From Desulfobacca sp. (GTDB taxonomy: Bacteria; Desulfobacterota; Desulfobaccia; Desulfobaccales; Desulfobaccaceae), in NCBI GenBank assembly GCA_020725545.1, contig DYEV01000030.1:1-64000 (forward strand): a stretch of 64,000 nucleotides of DNA, written 5' to 3'. The position numbers and the translations under genes are program-made. Under the pieces are notes generated by a model. That model was not told the origin of the DNA. It saw nothing but the letters and a program-made list of their open reading frames with translations, and searched no databases. Shown here one piece after another: positions 6,863-34,838 of the stretch. Position 1 is the stretch's first letter; each line of letters begins with the position of its first letter.

Positions 6863-6973
6863 CTCAACTCCTTGATAAGAATATGTTAGGCAGGCAACCT
6901 GGCAGGCACCCGCCGTTGTTTTACACTAATGCCCATTCGGGGCAGCGTCAACCTTTTTTCGTGCGAGGCTGGT

Positions 6974-7852
6974 ATGGCGTATCCCCCCTGGCTGCAGGAA
7001 CAATTGGCCCAGGACGAGTCCCTGCGACGCAGTGCCGCGGCCCGCCGCCTAACCCGGCGGTTGGCCTCCCTGCACCTACAGACGGTCTGTCAGAGTTCCC
7101 GCTGCCCCAACCGGGGCCAGTGCTGGTCCCAAGGCACGGCCACTTTTCTGATCCTCGGCACTATTTGCACCCGGGGCTGTCGGTTCTGCAATCTCAGCCC
7201 CGGCCGGCCTGGCCCCGTGGACGAAGATGAACCCTGGCGGCTCCTGCAGGCCGTCCGGGAGTTGGGTCTGCGACACGTGGTCATTACCTCGGTGACCCGG
7301 GATGACCTGCCGGACCGCGGGGCTGCGGCTTTTGCCGCGGCCATCCAGGTCCTGCGGCGGGGGGCCAGCCCTTTGCTGATCGAAATCCTCACGCCGGATT
7401 TTCAGGGCCAGCGCTCTGCCCTGGAAACCGTCGCCGCGGCCCAACCCGATCTGTGGGGCCATAATCTGGAAACCGTCCCCCGCCTCTATCCTGGCATCCG
7501 ACCCGGGGCAGGTTACGAGCGTTCCCTCGACCTGCTGGCCGCCAGCAAAGACTTGGAGCCGACCATCGTTACCAAATCCGGCCTCATGTTGGGATTGGGA
7601 GAAACCCCGACCGAGGTTATGGCGGTCTTAGCTGATCTGCGCCAAGCAGGGGTGGACCACCTGACCTTGGGCCAGTATTTAGCTCCCTCCCGCCGGCACG
7701 TGCCGGTCAGCCGCTACCTTTCCCCCGCTGAGTTCGCAGCCTGGGGCCGCTACGCCCGTAAACTGGGCTTTGCCTCGGTCCACAGTGCTCCTTTGGTCAG
7801 GAGTTCGCTACCGCCCAGCCTCGAGAATACAGTTTCGGGTTTCGAGTTTTGA
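6974..7852 (+). CDS. lipA: Lipoyl synthase
   Basis: 292-residue radical SAM enzyme that inserts two sulfurs into octanoyl groups on lipoyl-carrier proteins. Both clusters are marked: the auxiliary cluster CxxxxCxxxxxC (C39, C44, C50) and the SAM cluster CTRGCRFC (C65, C69, C72). The C-terminal RSS motif that ligates the auxiliary cluster is present (VRSSL). I prefer the ATG at 6974, preceded by GAGG, over the one at 6929. The GcvH-like proteins at 18.5-20.1 kb are possible substrates. Confidence 0.93.
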   Translation: MAYPPWLQEQLAQDESLRRSAAARRLTRRLASLHLQTVCQSSRCPNRGQCWSQGTATFLILGTICTRGCRFCNLSPGRPGPVDEDEPWRLLQAVRELGLRHVVITSVTRDDLPDRGAAAFAAAIQVLRRGASPLLIEILTPDFQGQRSALETVAAAQPDLWGHNLETVPRLYPGIRPGAGYERSLDLLAASKDLEPTIVTKSGLMLGLGETPTEVMAVLADLRQAGVDHLTLGQYLAPSRRHVPVSRYLSPAEFAAWGRYARKLGFASVHSAPLVRSSLPPSLENTVSGFEF

Positions 7853-16795: not shown

Positions 16796-18169
16796 ATGAA
16801 TTCTATCCCTGACTTGGAAGTTGTCCGCAAACGGGTCCTGGAAAAGAAAAACAATTACCAGGAATATAATTTCGGGCCCATTAAAGACGACGCCATCAAA
16901 ACCTTTTTTGATCTGGCTCAGGAATACGAGACCCTGGAGAACCTTTTCCGGGTTTGCGTGTCGGTGATTAAAGAATTCTTCGGTTTGGAGAGCCGTCTCT
17001 TTCTCACCTGCACCGGCTTGGGGTGTTTGGAATATGTCTGCAGTAGCCTGGAGGGGGTGCAGGCCGAGAAAACCCCGGCGCCCGAAAACATTGTCCTGTC
17101 CAATACTGCTTATGGCAGCAACGACTCCTGGATCATTCCGGTGCGGGGCAACCGGCTGCTGGTGGACCGCCTGCCCTTCTTTACCAAAGAGCAGGTGATC
17201 GGTATGCTGGAGATCTTTCCCGCCGATCATCTGACGGAAAATGATAAGTTTTTCTTTGAAAAATACGCCAATCGGTTGGGTTATGCCCTGCATAACAAGA
17301 TCATTACCCTGCAGAATATCCAGCACATCCGCTTCATTAACAGCTTGGTGGGGGATATTGAACATAATGTCATCATTCCCAACATCTCTTTGAGCCTTTA
17401 TCTGCGCCATGTGAAGAAAAAGGTGGAAGCCCTGCGCGACCTGGTAGACCACCCCCCCGAGGCAGTGCAACACTGTCAGGAATTCGCCAACGCGGTCCGG
17501 GATCTCACTTTGGGCATCGAGACGGACTGCCAGAATTTTGAGAAGCAATATCGCGGGGTCAGCCTTTTTCTGGAATCTTTGTTCCGCCCCAGCCATTTCC
17601 AGAAAGGCCACCTGGTCTTGCGCAAACGCCGCTGCAACGTCCGCAGCGAGATTATTCAACCACAACTGGAGCTCTATCTTCCCAAATTGCAAGAGCGGCA
17701 GATCGAGATCGATGAAAGCCTGGGCGGCGTGCCGGCCGAAGATTTTACCCTGATGGTTGACAAGGGCCTCATTTCCCAGGTGTATGCTAACCTCTTCTCC
17801 AATGCCGTCAAGTATACCCGACCTTCGCCCCAGGGCCGGAAATACATTTCCTACGGCCGGCGCCTGATCCCCCATTTCTTTGGCCCGGGCAAAGACGGCG
17901 TCCGCTTCAACGTCTTCTCCTCGGGTCCTCCCATTCCACCCGAGGATCGAGCTTTGATCTTTGAAGAGGGGTATCGCGGCCACAACACGGAGAGCGAAGT
18001 GGGCACAGGCCGCGGACTCTTCTTCATCCGCAACGTCGTTGAGACCCATGGCGGCCAGGTGGGGGTAGACATCACCCCGGATGGCAATGATTTCTATTTC
18101 GTCCTGCCGGTCTTTGCCGATCAAGAGACGACGGCCACGGAACTGCATCCGGAGGGGACACCTCACTAA
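16796..18169 (+). CDS. Orphan sensor histidine kinase-like protein
   Basis: 457 residues, soluble with no transmembrane segment. A GAF-like region spans about residues 35-170. A putative phospho-acceptor is His190 in GDIEHNVIIPN. The ATPase domain has the N box NLFSNAVKYT and a G box GTGRGLFFIRNVVETHGG. No receiver domain or response regulator gene is adjacent. It lies upstream of the sigma-54-driven GcvH-like genes, which hints at a regulatory link but does not show one. Confidence 0.8.
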   Translation: MNSIPDLEVVRKRVLEKKNNYQEYNFGPIKDDAIKTFFDLAQEYETLENLFRVCVSVIKEFFGLESRLFLTCTGLGCLEYVCSSLEGVQAEKTPAPENIVLSNTAYGSNDSWIIPVRGNRLLVDRLPFFTKEQVIGMLEIFPADHLTENDKFFFEKYANRLGYALHNKIITLQNIQHIRFINSLVGDIEHNVIIPNISLSLYLRHVKKKVEALRDLVDHPPEAVQHCQEFANAVRDLTLGIETDCQNFEKQYRGVSLFLESLFRPSHFQKGHLVLRKRRCNVRSEIIQPQLELYLPKLQERQIEIDESLGGVPAEDFTLMVDKGLISQVYANLFSNAVKYTRPSPQGRKYISYGRRLIPHFFGPGKDGVRFNVFSSGPPIPPEDRALIFEEGYRGHNTESEVGTGRGLFFIRNVVETHGGQVGVDITPDGNDFYFVLPVFADQETTATELHPEGTPH

Positions 18170-18414: not shown

Positions 18415-18481
18415 TTAAGATAAGGCAAAAGTGTTATTGGAGATCACATCCAACGGAATCAGCCTAAAGGAGGTTGTCATC

Positions 18482-19123
18482 ATGAATTCGGCCATCACTC
18501 AAAAAGATCGCGCTGCTCAGATGCCGAATGCGGCCGCAGCGGTGAAGATGGTGGAAGTTTTCGGCTTTAAAGTCCCCACTTCCACGTATTATGTGCATCG
18601 GGGCCATGCCTGGGCGGTGCTGGAAGAGACCGGTCAGGTGCGGGTTGGCATGGACGATTTTTCCCAGAAGATTTTGGGGCCGGCCGAGGCCATCGAGTTT
18701 CCGGTGGTCGGTCGGGAATACTATCAGGATCACGTCTGTCTGGCCCTGATCCGCCAGGGTCATAAGGCCAAGGTTTTGGCGCCGGTGGACGGCATTGTCC
18801 AGGAGATCAATGCCAGGGTACAGGAGCAACCCACCTTGGTGCATGATGATCCTTATGGCGAAGGCTGGCTTTTCCGGCTTAAACCCACCAACCTGAGCCG
18901 GAATCTGGACTCCTTGTATAGCGGTGAAATCGTGGCCAATTGGATCGATCAGGAATCCCATCGGCTTCTGGGGCTCATGGAGTCGACGGTGGGGGTGACG
19001 CTGCCCAGTGGCGGGAGCATCGTGGACGATGTCTATGGTCATTTCCCTGACTTGGGCTGGCGGCGGTTGGTGCAGGAATTTTTCCTCCGGGATCTGACCA
19101 AGACCTGGAAAAAAAGGAGCTGA
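18482..19123 (+). CDS. GcvH-like lipoyl-carrier domain protein
   Basis: 213 residues; the ATG at 18482 follows AAAGGAGG, a strong ribosome binding site. A GcvH-like biotinyl/lipoyl fold spans about residues 34-140, with GHAWAVLEETGQVRVGMDDF. The expected lipoyl-lysine position is Lys95 in RQGHKAKVLAPVDG, though the flanks differ from the canonical ESVKA of glycine cleavage H proteins. A further 70 C-terminal residues (DDVYGHFPDLGW) are shared with the next gene. No glycine cleavage genes (gcvT, gcvP) are near, so a role in glycine cleavage is doubtful. Confidence 0.8.
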   Translation: MNSAITQKDRAAQMPNAAAAVKMVEVFGFKVPTSTYYVHRGHAWAVLEETGQVRVGMDDFSQKILGPAEAIEFPVVGREYYQDHVCLALIRQGHKAKVLAPVDGIVQEINARVQEQPTLVHDDPYGEGWLFRLKPTNLSRNLDSLYSGEIVANWIDQESHRLLGLMESTVGVTLPSGGSIVDDVYGHFPDLGWRRLVQEFFLRDLTKTWKKRS

Positions 19124-19230: not shown

Positions 19231-20139
19231 ATGAAACCTCAAGAACAGAAAAAATATTGCGTCTGGATGGAGGCCGGGGTCATCGACTATAAGGTCTGTG
19301 ACCATAACTATGACTGCACCACCTGCACGTTCGACCGCTCCATGAAACAGACGGCGGCCGCCAATCTGGCCCTGATGCGGGCCGGGCAAACACCGCGGGG
19401 GAAAAAGGGGAAGATCATCCCCTGGCAGGAGAAAATGCGGCAACGGGCCGGGTTGCAGCAGCAGTGCCGTCACATGTTGACCCATCGGGTGCCGGCCTAT
19501 TTTTGTGGCAATAACTATGATTGTCGTCGCTGCCCCTTTGACCAGATGCTGGAAGACCAGTGGCAGCTTTTTGCTCCACCGGTCCGACCGCATCTCCAAG
19601 AGGTATTCGGCATCCCGGTGCCCACCAGTTCCTACCTCCACCAGGGGCATGCCTGGGCTGCGGTGGAGGACGGTGGTCGGGTCCGCGTAGGGTTGGATGC
19701 CTTTGTCCAAAAAGTCTTTGGACCGGCTGAGGAGCTGCGATTGCCGCGGGTCGGGGAGGTCTTGAGCCAAAACCGCGTCGGCTTGGATCTGGCCCGCCAG
19801 GGGCACAAGGCGCCGGTGCTGGCGCCGGTGGATGGCATCGTGGAAGCGGTCAATCCCGAGGTGCGCCGACATCCCCAGGTGGTCCATGATTATCCTTATC
19901 AAGAAGGCTGGCTGGTGGTGGTGAGCCCTACCCGCCTTAAACCGAATTTGGAAACCCTGCTCTATGGAGAGAAGAATCTTGCCTGGATACATCATGAAAC
20001 CCATAGGCTTTTGGGCCTGCTCCCCGCCAGCGCCGGGCTTACCCTTCCCGACGGCGGCGCTCTGGTGGACGATGTCTATGGCCATTTCCCCGACCTGGGT
20101 TGGGATCTGCTGGTCCAAGAATTTCTGCGGAGCCACTAA
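19231..20139 (+). CDS. GcvH-like protein with two N-terminal four-cysteine modules
   Basis: 302 residues. The N-terminal part carries two copies of a C-x12-C-x5-C-x2-C module: C10, C23, C29, C32 and C79, C92, C98, C101. Both contain NYDC and C-x-FD. Each could bind a metal ion or Fe-S cluster. The C-terminal part (from about residue 120) is a GcvH-like carrier paralogous to the preceding gene, with the candidate lipoyl lysine Lys193 in RQGHKAPVLAPVDG and the same DDVYGHFPDLGW tail. GGAAGGA precedes the start. It is probably transcribed from the sigma-54 promoter upstream. Function unknown. Confidence 0.8.
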   Translation: MKPQEQKKYCVWMEAGVIDYKVCDHNYDCTTCTFDRSMKQTAAANLALMRAGQTPRGKKGKIIPWQEKMRQRAGLQQQCRHMLTHRVPAYFCGNNYDCRRCPFDQMLEDQWQLFAPPVRPHLQEVFGIPVPTSSYLHQGHAWAAVEDGGRVRVGLDAFVQKVFGPAEELRLPRVGEVLSQNRVGLDLARQGHKAPVLAPVDGIVEAVNPEVRRHPQVVHDYPYQEGWLVVVSPTRLKPNLETLLYGEKNLAWIHHETHRLLGLLPASAGLTLPDGGALVDDVYGHFPDLGWDLLVQEFLRSH

Positions 20140-22727: not shown

Positions 22728-25700
22728 ATGAATATCTTCAGATTTCGTGACAGCCTGATTAACGACTATGCCTCGTATGTGCGGAGTTTTATCCACATTC
22801 AAGATGAACGCATACGCCAGCATGTTGGGGATAACCTTGAAAAAGGCTTGCTTTGGCCTGACCCCTTTATTCAGCTGAATCCTGCCTTTGAGCCGGGTGA
22901 ATGGATCGATGAGCTGGTTGAGAAAGGCCTTTTACATAATGAGTGTCGACAGATTTTCCGCATTAAACCGGACCCGGCAGGAGAAGGCAAGCCCCTGCGG
23001 CTGCACAAACATCAAGCCGACGCCCTCAGAGCCGCCAAGACGGGGAAAAATTACGTCCTAACCACCGGCACCGGTTCGGGGAAAAGTCTGGCCTACATTG
23101 TTCCCATTGTGGATCATGTTTTGCGGCGAGGTTCTCAAAAGGGCATCCAGGCTATCATCATTTATCCCATGAATGCCCTGTGCAACAGTCAATATGACGA
23201 GCTGGTGAAATTTCTTTGCCATGGCTACCCCCCAGATTGTGCTCCGGTGCGCTTTGCCAAATATACCGGTCAGGAGAGCGATGAAGTAAGACAGGGGATA
23301 CTCACCAACCCGCCGGATATTATTCTCACCAACTATATGATGTTGGAATTGATTCTCACCCGGCCCTATGACAAAGAGCTGGTAAAAGCCTCCCAGGGTT
23401 TACAATTCTTAGTCCTGGATGAGCTGCATACCTATCGAGGGCGACAGGGGGCGGATGTGGCCCTCCTGGTGCGGCGCTTAAGAAATGCCTGCAATGCTGA
23501 TAACCTGCAATGTATTGGCACTTCGGCCACGTTAGCAGGACCTGGAACGTATGAGGAACAGCAGCAGGAAATTGCTGCCGTGGCAGGTAAGCTATTCGGA
23601 ACGGAAGTCCGGCCCGACTTGGTCATCGGAGAGTCTTTGCGGAAGGTGACACCGGATATAGACCTCTCGACCCCTGACTTTTTAATCAGTCTTCAAGAAC
23701 GGGTCATGGACCCTGATGTTACCCCACCATGGGAATATGAAGAATTTGTTAAAGATCCCTTGTCGATCTGGATCGAAAACACCTTCGGGGTAACGACCGA
23801 AAAGCAATCAGGACGGCTCATTAGAACTAAACCCCGGAGTCTTACCGGTGAAGAAGGCGCTGCCCAGGAACTGAGTTCTTTGATCGGGGTTCCGGTGTCA
23901 CGCTGCATCGAGGCGATTCAGGAGGGTTTACTGGCCGGTTACCGCTGTTTGGACCCTGCCACCGGATTTCCCGTTTTTGCTTTTCGACTACATCAATTTA
24001 TCAGTCGGGGTGATTACGTCTATGGTTCCCCTGAGCCGGAAGAAAAACGCTACATGACTGTTTACGGACAACAGTTTGTTCCCGGTAATCGTTCTCGGGT
24101 TTTGCTCCCCCTGGTCTTTTGCCGGGAGTGTGGACAGGAATATTATTGTGTCCGAAAAGCCCAGGACAAAGAATCAGATAAAATACGCTTTCTACCTCGG
24201 GAATTGGCGGATCGTTTTAGCGACGAGGAGGGAGAGGCTGGTTTTTTATTCAGAAATTCCCATAAGCCCTGGCCCGAAGATGAAAATGAAGTAGTAGAGC
24301 GTTTACCCGAAGACTGGCTGATAGAAGAATCGGGCAACATACGTCTCCGGGATAACCGGAGATTATTGCTGCCAGAATTGGTCCGACTGGCGCCCGATGG
24401 CCAGCAAACCGCAGACGGCGCCGCATTTCATTACTTCAAGGCCCCCTTCCGGTTTTGCTTAAATTGTGGGGTTTCCTATGGTATGAGGCAAGCTTCAGAT
24501 ATTGGCAAGCTGTCCTCTTTAGGAACTGAAGGCCGCAGCACCGCTACGACGATTCTGAGTCTGGCGGCCATCCGCCGCTTACGGCAGGAAGATTCGATTC
24601 CGGAAACCTCCCGAAAGCTTCTCAGTTTTACTGACAACCGTCAGGATGCCTCTCTCCAGGCCGGACATTTGAACGACTTCATTGAAATAGGCTTACTGAG
24701 GTCGGCGCTCTATAAAGCTGCCAGTAAGGCCGGGGCAGAAGGAATAGGGCATGATGTATTAACTCAAAAGGTGTTTACGGCCCTGGACCTCCCTTTGCAT
24801 CACTTTGCGAAAGACCCGGAGGTTAAATTCGCCGCTCTGAAAAATACCGAAAAGGCCTTAATGAACGTCATCGGCTATCGTCTCTACCATGATCTGCGCC
24901 GGGGCTGGCGGGTTACTTCCCCGAATTTGGAACAGTGTGGTTTATTGGAAATAGCCTATAATTCCCTGACAGAGCTCTGCGAAGCCTCGGAAGAATGGCA
25001 AAATATCCATGAAGCATTATTAACTGCCACTCCTGACACCAAAGCAAAAGTGTGCCGGGTGCTGTTAGATCACATGAGGCGGGAATTGGCCATCAGGGTG
25101 AACTATCTTGACGCCACATTCCAGGAAAGTATCCGGCATCAGAGTGATCAGCATCTCATAGCTCCCTGGGCCATTGATGAAAATGAACGGCTCATGGAAG
25201 CCACGGTTATCTTCCCTCGGTCTCGTCGGCCCCAGGATTATGGGGGACACCTTTTTATTTCTCCCCGGGGTGGCTTCGGGCAATTTCTCCGGCGCGCCTC
25301 GACCTTTCCTGATTACCCAAAGAAAATCAGCGGGGCTGAGGTAGGTGAGATTATTCTCCAGCTGCTGAAAATGTTGCGGATTGCCGGGTTGGTGGAAGCA
25401 GTGGTGCCGACCAAAGACGATAATGACGTGCCAGGCTATCAAATACCAGCCGCCGCCATCATTTGGCGGGCTGGTCCTGGAACGCAGCCGTTCCATGATA
25501 TCATCAGGGTGCCCCGCGCCCCGGAGACGGGTGGACGGACAAACCCCTTTTTCAAGGATTTTTATCAACACATCGCCGCCGAGAGCAAGGGTTTGGAAGC
25601 ACATGAACATACTGCCCAAGTCGACTATGAGAAGAGGATGGAGCGGGAAAAGGCCTTTCGGGCTGGCAAACTGCCGATTCTCTATTGCTCTCCTACCATG

Positions 25701-27935
25701 GAATTGGGCATAGACATCGCCACCCTCAATGTCGTCAATATGCGGAATGTTCCCCCGACCCCGGCCAACTATGCCCAAAGAAGCGGCCGGGCCGGGAGGA
25801 GCGGGCAGCCAGCTCTGGTGTATTCCTATTGCACCACCGGCAGCCCGCATGACCAGTATTTTTTTAAACGCCCGGAGCAGATGGTGTCCGGCTCAGTGAC
25901 CCCGCCGAGATTGGAACTGGCGAATGAGGACCTCATTAAATCTCATATTCAGGCAGTGTGGCTGGCGGCCACCGGCCTCTCCTTGGGTAGTTCTTTGCGG
26001 GATATTCTGGACGTGAGCGGCGATAGTCCCACCTTGGAGCTTCAACAACAAATCAAGGATGCCATCAATGATGCCAAGGCGAAGCAGAAAACTCTCCAAC
26101 AGAGCAAGGCTATCTTATCGACCCTGGTCGAGGAGTTGCAGGCAGCGGATTGGTATAGCGAAGGATGGCTGGATGAAACTTTAAACCAGGTGGGGCTGGC
26201 CTTTGATCAGGCCTGCGAACGCTGGCGGTCTCTCTATCGGGCCGCCGCCAGGCAGCGGGAGATGCAAAATAAAATCATCGGTGATGCTTCGGCAAGCGCC
26301 GAGAATAAAAAACAGGCCAAGCGGTTGCGCATGGAAGCCGAGGCCCAAATGGACCTTTTGCTGGAAACCAAAAACATTATGCAGTCTGACTTTTACAGCT
26401 ACCGCTATTTTGCCAGTGAAGGTTTCTTGCCGGGCTATAACTTCCCCCGCCTGCCATTATCAGCCTATATCCCAGGTCAACGCCACCACAAGGATGAATT
26501 TCTTTCCAGACCCCGTTTTCTGGCTATCTCCGAGTTCGGCCCCCGAGGCATCATTTATCACGAGGGTTCCCGCTTTCTCATCAACAAGGTTATTTTGCCG
26601 GTGGGCGAAGACGAGTTTCTCACTGCCGCTGCCAAACTCTGCCCGAACTGCGGCTACTTGCACCCGCTAGCCTTTGGTGGCCAAGGGGTGGATAACTGTG
26701 AGCAATGCCAGCAATTCCTTGAGCGTCCCATATGCCAGCTTTTCCGGCTGCAAAATGTGGCCACCAGGCGGAAGGATCGGATTAATTGCGACGAAGAGGA
26801 ACGCCTCCGTCTGGGATATGAGATAAAAACCGGCATCCGTTTCGCTTTGCATAAGGGAAACCTCTCCCTTCAAACGGCCACAGTGAATCATCCTGACCTG
26901 GGAACTCTGGCGACCTTGACTTACGGCCACGGTGCCACCCTGTGGCGCATCAATCTGGGTTGGAGCCGCAGGCAGAACAAAAATCAACTCGGCTTCGTGT
27001 TGGACACTGGAAGGGGCTATTGGGCCAAAAACGATCTACTTACGGCGGAGGAAGATGACTCTGACCCCATGAGTGCCAAGACTGTCAGAGTGGTCCCATA
27101 TGTGGAAGACCATCGCAACTGTCTTTTACTCACACCCGCCCAGGTCCTGGATAAGAATCAGATGGCTTCCCTGCAAGCGGTGGTAAAACGGGCCATTCAG
27201 GCCTACTTTCAATTGGAGGACAATGAATTGGCCGCCGAACCTCTCCCGAACCAGGACGAACGCCGGATGATCCTCTTTTATGAGGCTGCCGAGGGCGGGG
27301 CGGGCGTTTTGCGGCAACTGATCGCCACTCCCGATGCAGTTGCGGAAGTTGCCAAGGCGGCCCTGGACATCTGCCACTTTGATCCCCAAAACGGGGAAGA
27401 TAAACGTCGTGGCCCCCGTGCCCGAGAAGACTGTGAAGCCGCCTGTTATGATTGTTTATTAAACTACGGCAATCAGCGGGACCACCAGCTTTTAGACCGA
27501 CAGACCATTAAAGATTTTTTGTATCAACTCAGCCAAGCACGCACCTCTGTGTCCCCGGTGGGGATACCCAGGTCGGAGCATCTCAAGAAGCTTATGACCC
27601 TGGCCGGTTCTGATCTGGAACGAAGCTGGCTCGGTTTTCTGGAGGACCGGCGGCTGCACCTGCCTTCCCGAGCCCAATACTTTATGGACAAGTGCAAGAC
27701 CCGGCCGGATTTTATCTATGATGAGCATTTAGCGGTTATTTACGTGGACGGCCCGCCGCATGATTATCCCGAGCGGCAGAAAAGAGATGCAGAACTGACC
27801 ACCTGTTTGGAAGATTTGGGATATACCGTAATCCGCTTCCGCCATCAGGATGACTGGGAAAGCATCATTGCGAAATTCCCCCACATCTTCGGGGTAGTTA
27901 AAAAAATCAAGGGGTTTGAAAGTTGGAAACGGTGA
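22728..27935 (+). CDS. Helicase-DUF1998-nuclease fusion protein, DISARM/Druantia-like
   Basis: 1735 residues. An SF2 helicase core has Walker A TGTGSGKS (113-120), a DELH box (231-234, not DEAH) and SAT (266-268). Motif VI lies in [12 protein letters not shown]. Several zinc-finger-like CxxC pairs follow (FCREC, FCLNC, CPNC, CEQC). A DUF1998/MZB region includes [15 protein letters not shown]. The last 110 residues look like a Vsr/DUF559-type endonuclease fold: [17 protein letters not shown], then [14 protein letters not shown] splits the helicase (drmA) and DUF1998 (drmB); here they are one chain with an added nuclease. It overlaps the SNF2 gene start. Confidence 0.85.
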
Positions 27936-30754
27936 AAAGTTTTGCCGTCGGCTCCCTGGTGAAGGCCAGAGGCCGGGAATGGGTGGTTCTGCCCGAGTCC
28001 CAGACAGATATGCTCATACTCCGCCCTTTGGGAGGGACCGAAGATGAGGTAACCGGCATTTATCTTCCCTTGGAGCCGGTAACGCCGGCAGCCTTTGCGC
28101 TTCCCGATCCCAGTGAAATCGGCGATTTTCGTTCCTGCCGCCTGCTCCGGGACGCCGTCCGTCTGGGCTTCCGCTCCAGTGCCGGTCCTTTCCGGTCCTT
28201 TGCCAAGATCGCCGTGGAACCTCGGCCTTACCAATTGGTGCCGCTGCTCATGGCCCTGAAACTTGACCCGGTCCGGCTGCTGATCGCCGATGATGTGGGC
28301 ATCGGCAAGACCATTGAAGCCGGGCTGGTCGTCCGGGAACTCCTTGATCGTGGCGAAATCACCCGCCTCACCGTTCTCTGCCCACCGCACCTGGCCGAGC
28401 AATGGCAGGCTGAACTGGCGGAAAAATTTCATCTTGCCGCCGAACTGGTCTTGCCCAGCACTGTTACCCGACTGGAGCGGGTCTGTGCCGTCGGTCAATC
28501 CCTGTTTGAGGTCTATCCTTATACCATTGTTTCTCTGGATTACATCAAGTCTGATCGCCGCCGGGATGAGTTTTTGCGGACCTGCCCGGAACTGGTAGTG
28601 GTAGACGAGGCCCATACCTGCGCCCAGGCTGATGCCCAAAGCCGCAGCCGGCAACAGCGGCATCACTTGCTCCAGGGGTTGGCGAAAAATCCTGACCGCC
28701 ACCTAATTCTGGTTACGGCTACTCCTCATAGCGGCAAAGAAGAAGCCTTTCGCTCTCTCCTGGCCTTACTTGACCCTGCCTTCGCTAATCTCCCGGCAGA
28801 ATTGGGCGGTCCACAGAACGAACCCCACCGCCGACGCCTAGCCGCCCATCTGGTCCAACGCCGTCGGGGTGATATTCGCCACTATCTGCAGGCGGAAACC
28901 CCCTTCCCACTCCGGGAGGAAGCCGAAGAAACCTATGTGCTGGGGGAAGGCTCAGACTATAAAAAGCTCTTTGACCGGGTGCTGAAATATGCCCGTCAGA
29001 CCGTCGCTATCAAGGAAGGCGGCGAGCATCGGCAGCGGGTGCGCTGGTGGTCCATGCTGGCCCTGTTGCGCTCCCTGGCCAGCAGCCCGGCAGCAGCGGC
29101 GGCGACGTTGCGGAACCGCTCCAATGTCGCCGACACCGACTCAGTTGACGCCGCTGACGAGATCGGCCAACGCACTATTCTTGATCTGGACCTGGATGAG
29201 GTCGGCGACCGCGTCGACATCATTCCCGGCTCTGATTATGAGAGCAGCCAGTTTCAGGAGGACCGCCAGCGGCGTTATCTGCTGCAACTGGCCCGAGAAG
29301 CCGAAGCCTTGCAAGGGGCTAAGGATAGTAAACTGGAAAAAGCATTGCTTCTGATTAAGGGTTTTCTCAAAGACGGTTTTCACCCCATAATCTTCTGCCG
29401 CTTCATTCCCACCGCCGAGTATGTCGGTCAGGCTTTGCGGCAAGCCTTGCCGGGGGACGTGGAAGTGGGAGTAGTCACCGGCAATCTGCCCCCCGCTGAG
29501 CGGGAGGAGCGAGTGCTCAGATTAGGGGAGAGCCCCAAGCGGGTCCTGGTTTGCACTGATTGCCTGAGCGAAGGGATCAACCTCCAGGATCATTTTGATG
29601 CCGTCATGCACTATGACCTGAGCTGGAATCCTACCCGCCATGAACAACGGGAGGGGCGGGTGGACCGTTTCGGGCAGCCCCGGGATAAGGTCAGGGTCCT
29701 GACTTATTACGGCCTGGATAATCAAATCGACGGCATTGTTCTGGATGTGCTGCTGCGCAAGCATAAGAAAATCCGCAGTTCCCTGGGCATCTCCGTGCCG
29801 GTGCCGGTGGCCGCCCACCAGGTGGTGGAGGCTATTTTTGAGGGGCTGCTCTTGAGAGAACAATCCGGCCACACCCAGCTCTCCTTTGATTTTTTGGACG
29901 CGGTAAAAAAAGACGAACTTCACGCCCAATGGGATCAGGCCAGCGAACGGGAAAAACGTTCCAAAACCATGTTTGCCCAGGAAACCATTAAAGTGGCCGA
30001 AGTGGCCCAGGAAATGGAAGCGGCTCGGGCTGCCGTGGGCTCCGGCGTGGACGTGGCAAATTTTTTTCAGGAAGCGCTGCAAACCTTTGGGGCCACTGTC
30101 ACGGCGCCTAAGAGGGGCTATCATTTTGATCTGCGGGAGACGCCCCGGGCGCTTCGGGAAGCCTTGGGGCAGGGCGATGCTTTTGAGGCCCGTTTCGAGC
30201 TCCCGGTGGGCGACAAGATCATTTACCTGCATCGCACCCATCCCCTGGTGGAGACCCTGGCCGGTTATGTCATGAACACGGCCCTGGACCCGCTCACACC
30301 AGGCATCGCCCGCCGCTGCGGGGTAATTCGCACCCGCCAGGTGGAAAAGCGCACCACCCTGCTCCTGATGCGGTACCGGTATCACCTCATTACCACCAAG
30401 GCCGGGGTAGAGAAACAACTGCTGGCGGAAGATTGTCAGCTCCTGGGCTTTGCCGGAGCCCCGGAAAAGGCTCAGTGGCTGCCGGCAGAAGCCCTGACGC
30501 CGCTGCTGGCCTGTCAGCCCGATGCCAATATCAACCCTGACCAGGCTTCCCAGTTTGTGGCCAAAGTCATTGCCGGTATGCCCGCTTTACAGCCTCACCT
30601 GGAAGGCGCGGCGGTCAGGCGGGGTGAAGCTCTCTTGGAGGCCCACCGCCGGGTGCGCACCGCCGCCCGGCTGAAGGAGGTGCACCATCGGGTGGAGCCG
30701 CACCTGCCGCCGGATGTTTTGGGGATATACGTTTATTTGCCTGTCGTTGATTGA
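27923..30754 (+). CDS. SNF2-family helicase, DrmD-like
   Basis: 943 residues. N-terminal SNF2 motor: Walker A region DDVGIGKTIEAG (near 122), CPPHLAEQW, and VVDEAH (near 226). The C-terminal helicase domain has FCRFIPTAEYVG and motif VI QREGRVDRFGQ. The C-terminal 350 residues are not recognised. This matches DrmD of class 1 DISARM. The start is uncertain: TTG at 27923 overlaps the helicase gene by 13 bp, and GTG at 27932 gives a 4-bp GTGA overlap. Either implies translational coupling. Confidence 0.85.
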   Translation: METVKSFAVGSLVKARGREWVVLPESQTDMLILRPLGGTEDEVTGIYLPLEPVTPAAFALPDPSEIGDFRSCRLLRDAVRLGFRSSAGPFRSFAKIAVEPRPYQLVPLLMALKLDPVRLLIADDVGIGKTIEAGLVVRELLDRGEITRLTVLCPPHLAEQWQAELAEKFHLAAELVLPSTVTRLERVCAVGQSLFEVYPYTIVSLDYIKSDRRRDEFLRTCPELVVVDEAHTCAQADAQSRSRQQRHHLLQGLAKNPDRHLILVTATPHSGKEEAFRSLLALLDPAFANLPAELGGPQNEPHRRRLAAHLVQRRRGDIRHYLQAETPFPLREEAEETYVLGEGSDYKKLFDRVLKYARQTVAIKEGGEHRQRVRWWSMLALLRSLASSPAAAAATLRNRSNVADTDSVDAADEIGQRTILDLDLDEVGDRVDIIPGSDYESSQFQEDRQRRYLLQLAREAEALQGAKDSKLEKALLLIKGFLKDGFHPIIFCRFIPTAEYVGQALRQALPGDVEVGVVTGNLPPAEREERVLRLGESPKRVLVCTDCLSEGINLQDHFDAVMHYDLSWNPTRHEQREGRVDRFGQPRDKVRVLTYYGLDNQIDGIVLDVLLRKHKKIRSSLGISVPVPVAAHQVVEAIFEGLLLREQSGHTQLSFDFLDAVKKDELHAQWDQASEREKRSKTMFAQETIKVAEVAQEMEAARAAVGSGVDVANFFQEALQTFGATVTAPKRGYHFDLRETPRALREALGQGDAFEARFELPVGDKIIYLHRTHPLVETLAGYVMNTALDPLTPGIARRCGVIRTRQVEKRTTLLLMRYRYHLITTKAGVEKQLLAEDCQLLGFAGAPEKAQWLPAEALTPLLACQPDANINPDQASQFVAKVIAGMPALQPHLEGAAVRRGEALLEAHRRVRTAARLKEVHHRVEPHLPPDVLGIYVYLPVVD

Positions 30755-30785
30755 TTTGTCTCTGGCTTTGGAGATGTGATCCACA

Positions 30786-33700
30786 ATGCGCCACTCCCAT
30801 CGCGACCTTTTTATCACCGTCAAGACCGAAGGCGGCCTGCTGCCAGTGGACCTGCTGCAGCGTCTGGCCGAGGGCGACAAGGAACTGGACGGCCTCTCCC
30901 CGGAGTCCTATCATCTGGCCCCCCATGAAAAGTTGGGGGAAGTCATCAACCGGGCCTGGAATCGCCTGGTGGGGGCCTGGGCCTCCTTTCAAACCGCCGC
31001 GGCAGCCCTGCCCGAGTCCGACACCGGCACCACCCTCACCCGGGAGCGCTGGCTCCTCATCCTGTTTCAGGAATTGGGTTACGGCCGCCTCCTCCCCAGC
31101 AAGGCTCAGGAAATCGACGGCAAGGCCTACGCCATCAGCCACGCCTGGCAGCATACCCCCATCCACCTGGTCAGTTTTCGCCACGGCCTCGACAGCCGGG
31201 CGCCGGGCGTGGCCGGGGCCGCCCGCCTCAGTCCCCACAGCCTGGTGCAGGAATTCCTCAACCGCTCCGACCACCACCTCTGGGGCATGGTCAGCAATGG
31301 TTTGAAGCTGCGCCTGCTGCGGGATAATGCCAGTCTTACCCGCCAGGCCTTTGTGGAGTTCGATCTGGAAGCCATGTTCAATGGTGAGGTCTTTCCGGAT
31401 TTCGTTCTCCTCTTTCTGATCCTGCACCAATCCCGCCTGGAAGCCGAATCACCAGAGCACTGCTGGCTGGAAAAGTGGAGCCAGGAAGCCCAGCGCCGGG
31501 GCACCCGGGCCTTGGACCAACTCCGGCAGGGGGTCGAAGCGGCCTTGAAAACCCTGGGGCAGGGGTTCCTGGAACATCCGGCCAATACTGATCTGAGGAA
31601 CCGCCTGCAAGCCGGCCATCTCACCCCGGCTGTGCTCTACCAGGAGCTCTTACGCCTCATCTACCGCCTCATCTTTCTCCTGGTGGCCGAAGACCGGGAC
31701 CTGCTCCTGCCACCCGAGGCCGATGCCACCGCCCGGCGGCGCTATTATGAGTTTTACTCTCTCTCCCGGCTGCGCCGCCTGGCCCGGAGCCACCGGGGCA
31801 CCCGGCACGCCGACCTCTGGCAGGCCTTCGGCGTCACCTGCCGCTGTCTGGCACAGGGGGAACCGGCCCTGGGGCTGGCCCCCCTGGGCGGCTTCCTCTT
31901 TGCCCCCGAATCCCTGGCCAACCTCACTCATTGTGAGCTGAGCAATAAAGCCTTCCTGAGTGCCCTACGGTCCTTGTCATTTGTCGAAGCGCGGCGGCTG
32001 CTGCGTCCCATCGACTACCGCAATCTGGGCACCGAAGAACTGGGGAGCGTCTACGAGAGTCTGCTGGAATTGCATCCCCGGGTCAATGTCAGCGCCCGCA
32101 CCTTCGAGCTGGGCAGCGCCTCCGGCTCCGAGCGCAAGACCACCGGCTCGTATTACACACCCACTTCTCTCATAAACTGCCTCCTGGATTCGGCTTTGGA
32201 ACCGGTCCTGGCCTCGGCCCTGCAGCAGCCCGACCCGGAAAAGGCCCTGCTCAGTCTCAAAATCGTGGACCCGGCCTGCGGCTCCGGCCACTTTCTCATT
32301 GCCGCCGCCCACCGCCTGGGGAAACGCCTGGCTATGGTGCGCACCGGCGACATGGAGCCCGCTCCCGCCGAACGCCGCCGGGCCTTGCGGCAGGTGGTGA
32401 GCCATTGTATTTACGGGGTGGATGTCAATCCCCTGGCCGTGGAGCTGTGCAAGGTAGCCCTGTGGCTGGAGACCCTGGACCCCGGCCGCCCCCTGGGTTT
32501 CCTGGACCACCGGATCAAATGCGGCAACAGCTTGCTGGGGGCGACGCCCGCCCTGCTGAGCCAGGGGATTCCTGACGACGCCTTTAAACCAATCGAAGGT
32601 GATGACAAAGACTATTGCAGCAAGGCCAAAAAACGTAATAAAGCGGAGCGGCAGGCCCGCCAGCAGCAGAAACTGGATTTTCCCGCCGAGCCCTGGGAGC
32701 GCTTGGGGGACCTGGCCGCCGCCCTGATGCACGTGGAAGCCGTGGGTGAAGACACCATTGAGCAGGTGCAAGCCAAACAAGCCCGCTATGCCCAAGTGAT
32801 CAAGTCCAGCGGCTATCTCTTTAATCATCTCCGGGCCGACGCCTGGTGCGCCGCCTTTGTCTGGAAAAAGACGGAGGCCTTTCCTTACCCCATGACCCAA
32901 GGCATGTTGCGCCGCCTGGAAAAGAACCCCCATGATCTGCCCCCCTGGATGCGGGAGGAAATTCAGCGCCTGGCCACCGGATACCGCTTCTTCCACTGGC
33001 ACCTGGAATTCCCGGATGTCTTTCAGCCCAAGCCGGGGGCTGACCTATCAGACGATGAGGTGACTGGCTGGAGCGGCGGCTTTGACGTGGTGCTGGGTAA
33101 TCCGCCTTGGGAGCAAATGGAATTAGCGGAAAAAGAGTTCTTTGCCCCCCGTGATCCTGAAATTGCCCAGGCCCCCAACGCCGCCGCCCGGAAAAAACGC
33201 ATCGCCGCCCTGCCGGAGAGCAACCCCAGGTTGTGGGCCGATTTTCAGGCCGCCAAACGGGCCGCGGCGGGCGGCAGCCACTTTATCCGGCACTCGGGGC
33301 GCTATCCTTTAAGTGCCTATGGGCGAATAAATACTTATCAGATCTTTGCCGGGCTGGCCCGGCAGCTCGTTTCGTCCCGGGGCCGGGCCGGGATCATCGT
33401 CCCCTCGGGCATTGCCACCGATGACAGCAACAAGCACTTCTTCGCCCACCTGACCGACAAGCAGTCCCTGGTGAGCCTGTATGACTTGGAGAACCGGGAG
33501 GCCATCTTCCCTGGCGTGCATCGCTCCTATAAGTTCTGCCTCCTCACCCTGGGCGGGGCCGGGGCCGCCCCGGCGGGGGCCGATTTCGCCTTTTTCCTCA
33601 CCAATACCGAACAGCTGCGGGACGAGGAGCGCCATTTCATCCTATCTCCGGCTGACATCGCCCTCCTCAACCCCAACACCCGCACCTGCCCCATCTTTCG

Positions 33701-34838
33701 GAGCAAACGGGATGCCGAGATCACCAAGGCCATTTACCGCCGGGTGCCGGTCCTCATCGATGAGAGCCAGGGGGAGGCGGGAAATCCCTGGGGGATTTCT
33801 TTCAAACAAGGCCTTTTTAACATGTCCAGCGACTCCCGCCTCTTCCGCACCCGGGAGCAACTGGAGGGGGCAGGGTGGGAACTGCGGGGCAATGTCTTCC
33901 ACCGGGGCGAGGAGACCTGTCTGCCCCTGTATGAAGCCAAGCTCATCCACCACTATGACCACCGCTGGGCCACGTATGACAACGGGGAGACCCGGGCTTT
34001 AACTGCAGCCGAGAAGGCTGACCCCGACAGAGTCATCCTGCCCCGCTACTGGGTGCCGCAACCGGAAGTGCAGGCCCGCCTCCAGGGAAAGTGGGACCGC
34101 GCCTGGCTCCTGGGCTGGCGGGATATCGCCCGCTCCACCGACGAACGAACGGTCATCGCCGGGGTGGTGCCAAGGGTGGGGGTGGGTCATAAACTTCCTT
34201 TAATGTTCCCTGGTAACCTGAGGAAAGTAGATTCAACCGGTCTGTTGGCCAACCTCTCAGCTTTGGCTCTTGACTACATTGCCAGACAAAAAGTGGGAGG
34301 AACAAACTTAACCTTTTTTATTGTCAAACAAATTCCCCTGTTGCCACCCGAGACTTATTACAAATCTCTCCCCTGGCTCCCCACCGCTTCGCTCCAGGAC
34401 TTCCTCCTCCCCCGGGTCCTGGAGCTGACCTACACGGCCCAGAACCTGGCGGGCTGGGCCCGGGACCTGGGCTATACCGGCCCCCCCTGCCGCTGGGACG
34501 AAGAGCGCCGCTTCCTCATCCGCTGCGAACTGGACGCCCTCTATTTCCACCTCTACGGCCTTAACCGGGAGGACGCCGATTATATCCTGGAGACCTTCCC
34601 CATTGTCAAGCGCAAGGACGAGGAGCGCTACGGTGACTACCGCACCAAGCGGGTCATCCTGGAAATCTACGACGCCCTGGCAGAAGCTATCGACACCGGC
34701 CAGCCCTATCAGACCCGCCTGGACCCGCCGCCCGGCCCCCCGGCAAAGCCGCTCCCCGAATGGCAGCCCGGTCAGCCCCAACCACCGGATTGGCCAGCCC
34801 ATATCCATCCCCCGCAAGGGAGTCAAGATACCTCTTGA
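30786..34838 (+). CDS. Large adenine-specific DNA methyltransferase, DrmMI/Eco57I-like
   Basis: 1350 residues. [12 protein letters not shown] segment (near 455) precedes motif [17 protein letters not shown] (near 494). Motif IV is NPPW (near 771), marking an N6-adenine or N4-cytosine methylase; NPPW with this layout is typical of Eco57I/BREX/DISARM MTases. The long N-terminal region (about 450 residues) and C-terminal part probably recognise DNA. It lies 31 bp after the SNF2 gene, with GGAGATG before the ATG. It likely marks host DNA so the partner helicases spare it. Confidence 0.88.

Follow-up and report, generated by a model that had tools for sequence, protein, structure and literature searches.

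The window analyzed here, a 64,000-nucleotide stretch of Desulfobacca sp. DNA (contig DYEV01000030.1, assembly GCA_020725545.1), carries in succession a histidine-kinase-like gene, a gene for a protein that resembles the glycine cleavage H protein (the sister protein), and a gene for a second H-like protein in which the H-like domain is preceded by two four-cysteine modules (the cysteine-module gene; Table 1).

Table 1. Positions in the window of the cysteine-module gene, its parts and relevant genes upstream.
Feature	Position	Strand	Remarks
Lipoyl synthase gene LipA	6929-7852	+	TIGR00510, 321.5 bits (cut-off 310.25); about 11 kb upstream of the cysteine-module gene
Histidine-kinase-like gene	16796-18169	+	HATPase_c; upstream of the gene pair; distinct from the kinase of the set on contig C16
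Sister H-like protein, lacking cysteine modules	18431-19123	+	PF01597, 76.3 bits; in-frame ATG near 18482
Cysteine-module gene, 302 aa	19231-20139	+	Two four-cysteine modules, H-protein-like domain, C-terminal helical extension
Module 1, C10-x12-C23-x5-C29-x2-C32-x-FD	19258-19335	+	Residues 10-35; conserved cysteines
Module 2, C79-x12-C92-x5-C98-x2-C101-x-FD	19465-19542	+	Residues 79-104; homologous to module 1
Predicted H-protein-fold domain (GCV_H)	19594-20004	+	Residues 122-258; PF01597, 57 bits (cut-off 22.2); fold match to 1htp
Hairpin that bears the lipoyl Lys in true H-proteins	19786-19824	+	Residues 186-198; no conserved Lys across the family
C-terminal extension past the GCV_H match	20005-20136	+	Residues 259-302; invariant GG, D and W

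The duplicated four-cysteine module

The two modules (CVWMEAGVIDYKVCDHNYDCTTCTFD, starting at residue 10, and CRHMLTHRVPAYFCGNNYDCRRCPFD, starting at residue 79) contain all eight cysteines of the protein. Their identical C-x12-C-x5-C-x2-C spacing, each with NYDC and C-x-FD, had been described in the original prediction and is confirmed in the ORF translation, as is their absence from the sister protein. Chance is ruled out as the origin of the motif: of 200,000 residue shuffles, four produced a single motif and none produced two, and a scan of the 194 stop-to-stop segments of at least 100 aa in the window returned these two matches only. Compared by hhalign, one module aligns with the other at a probability of 98 (E 2.5e-13); they are therefore homologous and represent a domain duplication. 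A module-1 HMM detects module-2 sequences at about 1e-12. Searches of the modules against Pfam, NCBIfam, PHROGs and the PDB returned no entry above cut-off, the zinc-finger family zf-CHY (PF05495) scoring 13.2 bits with the whole protein, below its cut-off of 31.3. Two NCBIfam families, GDCCVxC (best E 0.0019, 5 of 17 members) and FeFe hydrogenase (E 0.0084, 2 of 17 members), were too weak to be accepted as homologues of the module.

The first 110 residues, used as query against 59 related genomes, found a match in 22, and an alignment of 16 chosen relatives shows no variation at C10, C23, C29, C32, W12 and M13. A contig scan with the pattern C-I/V-W-M-x-A-G yielded 304 relatives, which were narrowed down to the best 80 loci, all labelled as Deltaproteobacteria, Desulfobacterota or subgroups thereof, or as uncultured bacteria; 79 of these 80 loci supplied 104 proteins in which one or more strict modules occur, referred to below as the relatives. 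Because at least one strict module was required, module 1 was selected for and module 2 was not; the module-1 cysteines, W12 and M13 thus occur in 104/104 of a set chosen on motif, while the four cysteine columns of module 2 are occupied in 101, 94, 101 and 101 of the 104. The refutation named by the original prediction, that the cysteines would not be conserved among homologues, did not materialize: they are conserved across Desulfobacterota, and 86 of the relatives have two strict modules with the exact spacing. The remaining 18, inspected by eye, comprise eight with x13 in place of x12 but all four cysteines kept, seven with a shortened module 2, and three that lack it. These reductions and losses, together with the missing first cysteine of module 2 in a paralogue encoded on contig C16 of the same genome, indicate that two centres are not essential. 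Four invariant cysteines, a CxxC that opens a helix, an apparently cytoplasmic location and anaerobic hosts point to a metal centre more than to disulfides, and we infer that each module binds one such centre.

The H-protein fold and the lipoyl-lysine position

AlphaFold prediction from the single sequence was of no use (pLDDT 32.7), but a model built from 75 sequences reached a mean pLDDT of 90.5 and a pTM of 0.65. A fold search with the H domain of this model matched 1htp (Z 19.2, 131 aligned residues, rmsd 1.4), so that an H-protein fold of the presumed carrier domain is confidently predicted. The lipoyl-lysine column, set by a mafft alignment with fragments of 1onl and 2ka7, holds Gly in the window protein and Lys in 4 of the 104 relatives; Lys is found one and two residues away in 22/104 and 15/104, respectively. 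The exact column is uncertain because HMMER alignments of the sister protein disagree, placing the lipoyl Lys of 1onl opposite His and that of 2ka7 opposite Gly; a conserved Lys is nevertheless absent from every candidate column of the hairpin, and 32/104 relatives, as well as the C16 paralogue, have no hairpin Lys at all.

The original prediction had called the protein a lipoyl carrier and had suggested that two metal or Fe-S centres could lie next to a swinging lipoyl arm. Its structural half holds up, in that conserved four-cysteine modules do lie beside a predicted H fold and two putative metal or Fe-S centres are plausible; its lipoyl half does not. The lysine counts rule out a genuine lipoyl carrier for the family, and they make a swinging arm very unlikely together with the lack of any match to glycine decarboxylase GcvP (PF02347) in the genome itself (G000, 99.96% complete), in a search that found this enzyme in 10 of 14 named genomes as a control. 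K193 of the window protein lies two residues from the canonical position and may accept a lipoyl group, yet this cannot be the function of the family. That an arm works beside the metal centres is accordingly highly improbable, even with the predicted fold, the position of K193, the LipA gene in the window and LplA/LipB-family genes elsewhere in the genome counted in its favor, and it is further disfavored by comparison with LbpA of the Hdr-like sulfur-oxidation pathway, of which all 95 members keep the Lys and most have two conserved cysteines (PMC6067878).

LbpA resembles the present family as an H-like protein outside the glycine cleavage system, and HdrA-like genes occur in some neighborhoods here; the cysteine-module family differs in lacking the Lys and in having eight cysteines in an N-terminal domain. 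Likewise, GcvH (PF01597, TIGR00527) shares the predicted fold and the above-cut-off PF01597 match, but the window protein has no conserved lipoyl Lys, bears N-terminal modules and a C-terminal extension, comes from a genome lacking a GcvP match, and scores 51.7 bits with the TIGR00527 equivalog (cut-off 115.85). The NCBIfam family GcvH_rel_desulf (NF045810), GcvH-related and by its name pointing to sulfate reducers, matches at 18.2 bits against a cut-off of 150. For each of these three families, then, the window protein misses a defining feature.

Six matches to GCV_H (PF01597) exceed the cut-off in this genome, yet it has no GcvP match; an annotation as "glycine cleavage H protein" in sulfate reducers therefore need not imply glycine cleavage or lipoylation. 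In the protein with the highest GCV_H score of this genome (L033 on contig C20, 119 bits), the lipoyl Lys is likewise missing (DAQSGRRELLAPLSG); an IorA-like gene is found nearby.

Gene neighborhoods and fusions of the module

A second copy of the sister and cysteine-module pair, on contig C16 of the same genome, belongs to a fuller gene set with a PAS/HisKA/HATPase kinase that includes a GFO_IDH_MocA Rossmann domain, a sigma-54 response regulator, and an archaemetzincin (PF07998; M54) gene convergent with the cysteine-module gene. The window pair stands behind another kinase and has this kinase-like neighbor only; ORF inspection from about 10 kb upstream to a few kb downstream revealed neither an archaemetzincin nor a sigma-54 regulator, and the window copy is an orphan paralogue.

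The C16 arrangement recurs, by inspection, in a relative assembled as a single contig (3,282,536 bases). Neighbor clustering in the best 80 of 304 loci, many of them cut by contig ends, placed a kinase/regulator in 62/80, an archaemetzincin in 51/80 and an HdrA-like gene in 29/80; a search by simple motifs detected all three of kinase, regulator and protease in 32 of the 80, and Pfam confirmed the gene set on three example sets. All 52 archaemetzincins of the cluster keep HExxHx5HC...CxM...CxxC, and 51 of them lie at most 5,035 bases from a cysteine-module gene (33 on the opposite strand, 18 on the same strand). Across 394 genomes, modules were found in 85, M54 in 146 and both in 75 (Fisher 1.4e-28, phylogeny ignored); among the matches listed, the two lie within 10 kb of each other in 48 of 63 assessable genomes and are not adjacent in 15. 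Of the two, adjacency is the stronger evidence. This sensor-regulator-protease set beside a cysteine-module gene appears to be undescribed so far; the open-access literature searched gave no description of the combination of module, H fold and gene set, an absence that is no proof of novelty.

The kinases of the set often start with an NAD-type Rossmann domain (for example L127:4450-6792, GFO_IDH_MocA at 1.8e-9), and a loose NAD-type Rossmann motif occurs in 19 of 78 kinase-like proteins; NAD(H) sensing by these kinases is possible.

The module is also found in other architectures. Tandem modules are fused to a receiver domain in L166 and occur without an H domain in L161, where they adjoin NuoE/NuoF-like genes (NuoE identified by eye). 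An additional module pair lies upstream in the same chain, before the H-like domain, in L158 and L160 (ORFs of 443 and 493 aa). In L159, L161 and L164 (L164, like the module positions in all these architectures, by eye), a NuoG-like Fer2/Fer4 region is joined to one module and an H-like domain; two of these fusions (L159:2768-4144 and L161:4758-6086) lie beside NuoF- and POR/IOR-like genes, that of L159 adjoining NuoF-like and POR/TPP genes. The cysteine-module gene of L170 shares a strand run, apparently an operon, with genes for membrane-anchored H-like, NrfD-like and TAT/4Fe-4S proteins (by eye). By the fusions and neighborhoods of L158-L161, L164, L166 and L170, the module is a mobile, apparently cytoplasmic domain that accompanies signalling and electron-transfer parts.

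Such contexts would also suit an electron-transfer subunit, one that passes electrons through its Fe-S modules inside an HdrA-, NuoEFG- or IOR-type complex while the two-component neighbors merely regulate the genes. The NuoG-like fusions, which hold 2Fe-2S, 4Fe-4S, one cysteine module and an H-like domain in a single chain, speak for this, as do the HdrA-like genes counted above and the H-like domain in which an HdrA/MvhD-like protein from this genome ends. The window protein differs from NuoG/HydA-type subunits, to whose N-terminal Fe-S region some relatives are fused, in having no Fer2/Fer4 domain. Against an electron-transfer subunit, the commonest neighbors are kinase/regulator and archaemetzincin rather than Hdr/Nuo, and one fusion joins the modules to a receiver domain, which leaves a purely electron-relaying role quite unlikely. 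The HdrA/MvhD-like iron-sulfur protein in question (L037 on contig C25) is a 977-aa open frame, and its C-terminal H-like domain was recognized by eye and by a GCV_H match.

A candidate adaptor in a proposed redox-signalling set

The reading we favor, at a probability of about 40%, makes the protein an H-fold adaptor that bears two metal centres, is not lipoylated and belongs to a redox-signalling set of Desulfobacterota; signalling, docking and protease action are read from gene context. The set, uncharacterized as yet, would consist of a PAS histidine kinase, a sigma-54 response regulator, an archaemetzincin and the H-like cysteine-module protein. Without its Lys, the H fold makes most sense as a docking surface, by which the H-like domain would bind HdrA-, NuoEFG- or IOR-like complexes of low-potential electron transfer and present no lipoyl arm. 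The two-component system would read out the state of the centres, and the archaemetzincin would trim or remove the adaptor. Given that kinase, sigma-54 regulator and protease are its commonest neighbors, the protein is most economically explained as a redox-responsive adaptor.

The identity of the metal bears on this role. The NuoG-type fusions tilt the balance towards an Fe-S cluster, which is a little likelier than Zn as the occupant of each module; Zn is a close rival. Were the modules structural Zn sites, the protein could be a scaffold that joins the sister protein, the kinase or the protease and has no redox role. Zn would suit four-cysteine sites placed ahead of a helix in the model, the signature of the archaemetzincin partner marks it as a Zn enzyme, and loss of module 2 is tolerated in some relatives; the association with Fe-S and flavin electron-transfer subunits, through fusions as well as gene context, and the lack of any curated zinc-finger family above cut-off, weigh on the other side and render a Zn scaffold somewhat doubtful.

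A bolder version of the redox-responsive adaptor, rather unlikely in its entirety, would make the set a new redox-signalling system of anaerobic bacteria in which an H-fold adaptor that has exchanged lipoate for two Fe-S modules works together with a PAS histidine kinase (in part carrying an NAD-type Rossmann domain), a sigma-54 regulator and an archaemetzincin; the adaptor would report the state of electron-bifurcating Hdr/Nuo/IOR complexes, and the protease would clear it upon cluster loss.

The family joins an H-protein fold with an unconserved cofactor site to an unnamed, duplicated four-cysteine domain that is seen again on receiver and NuoG-like proteins. Its conserved neighborhood gives bacterial archaemetzincins a testable context and, if the redox-signalling set is real, a candidate substrate.

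Elsewhere in the window, three very long ORFs (1735, 943 and 1350 aa; 22728-34838, + strand) follow a tRNA-Lys gene; the first encodes, by eye, a DEAD-type helicase, and the three are possibly a defence island.
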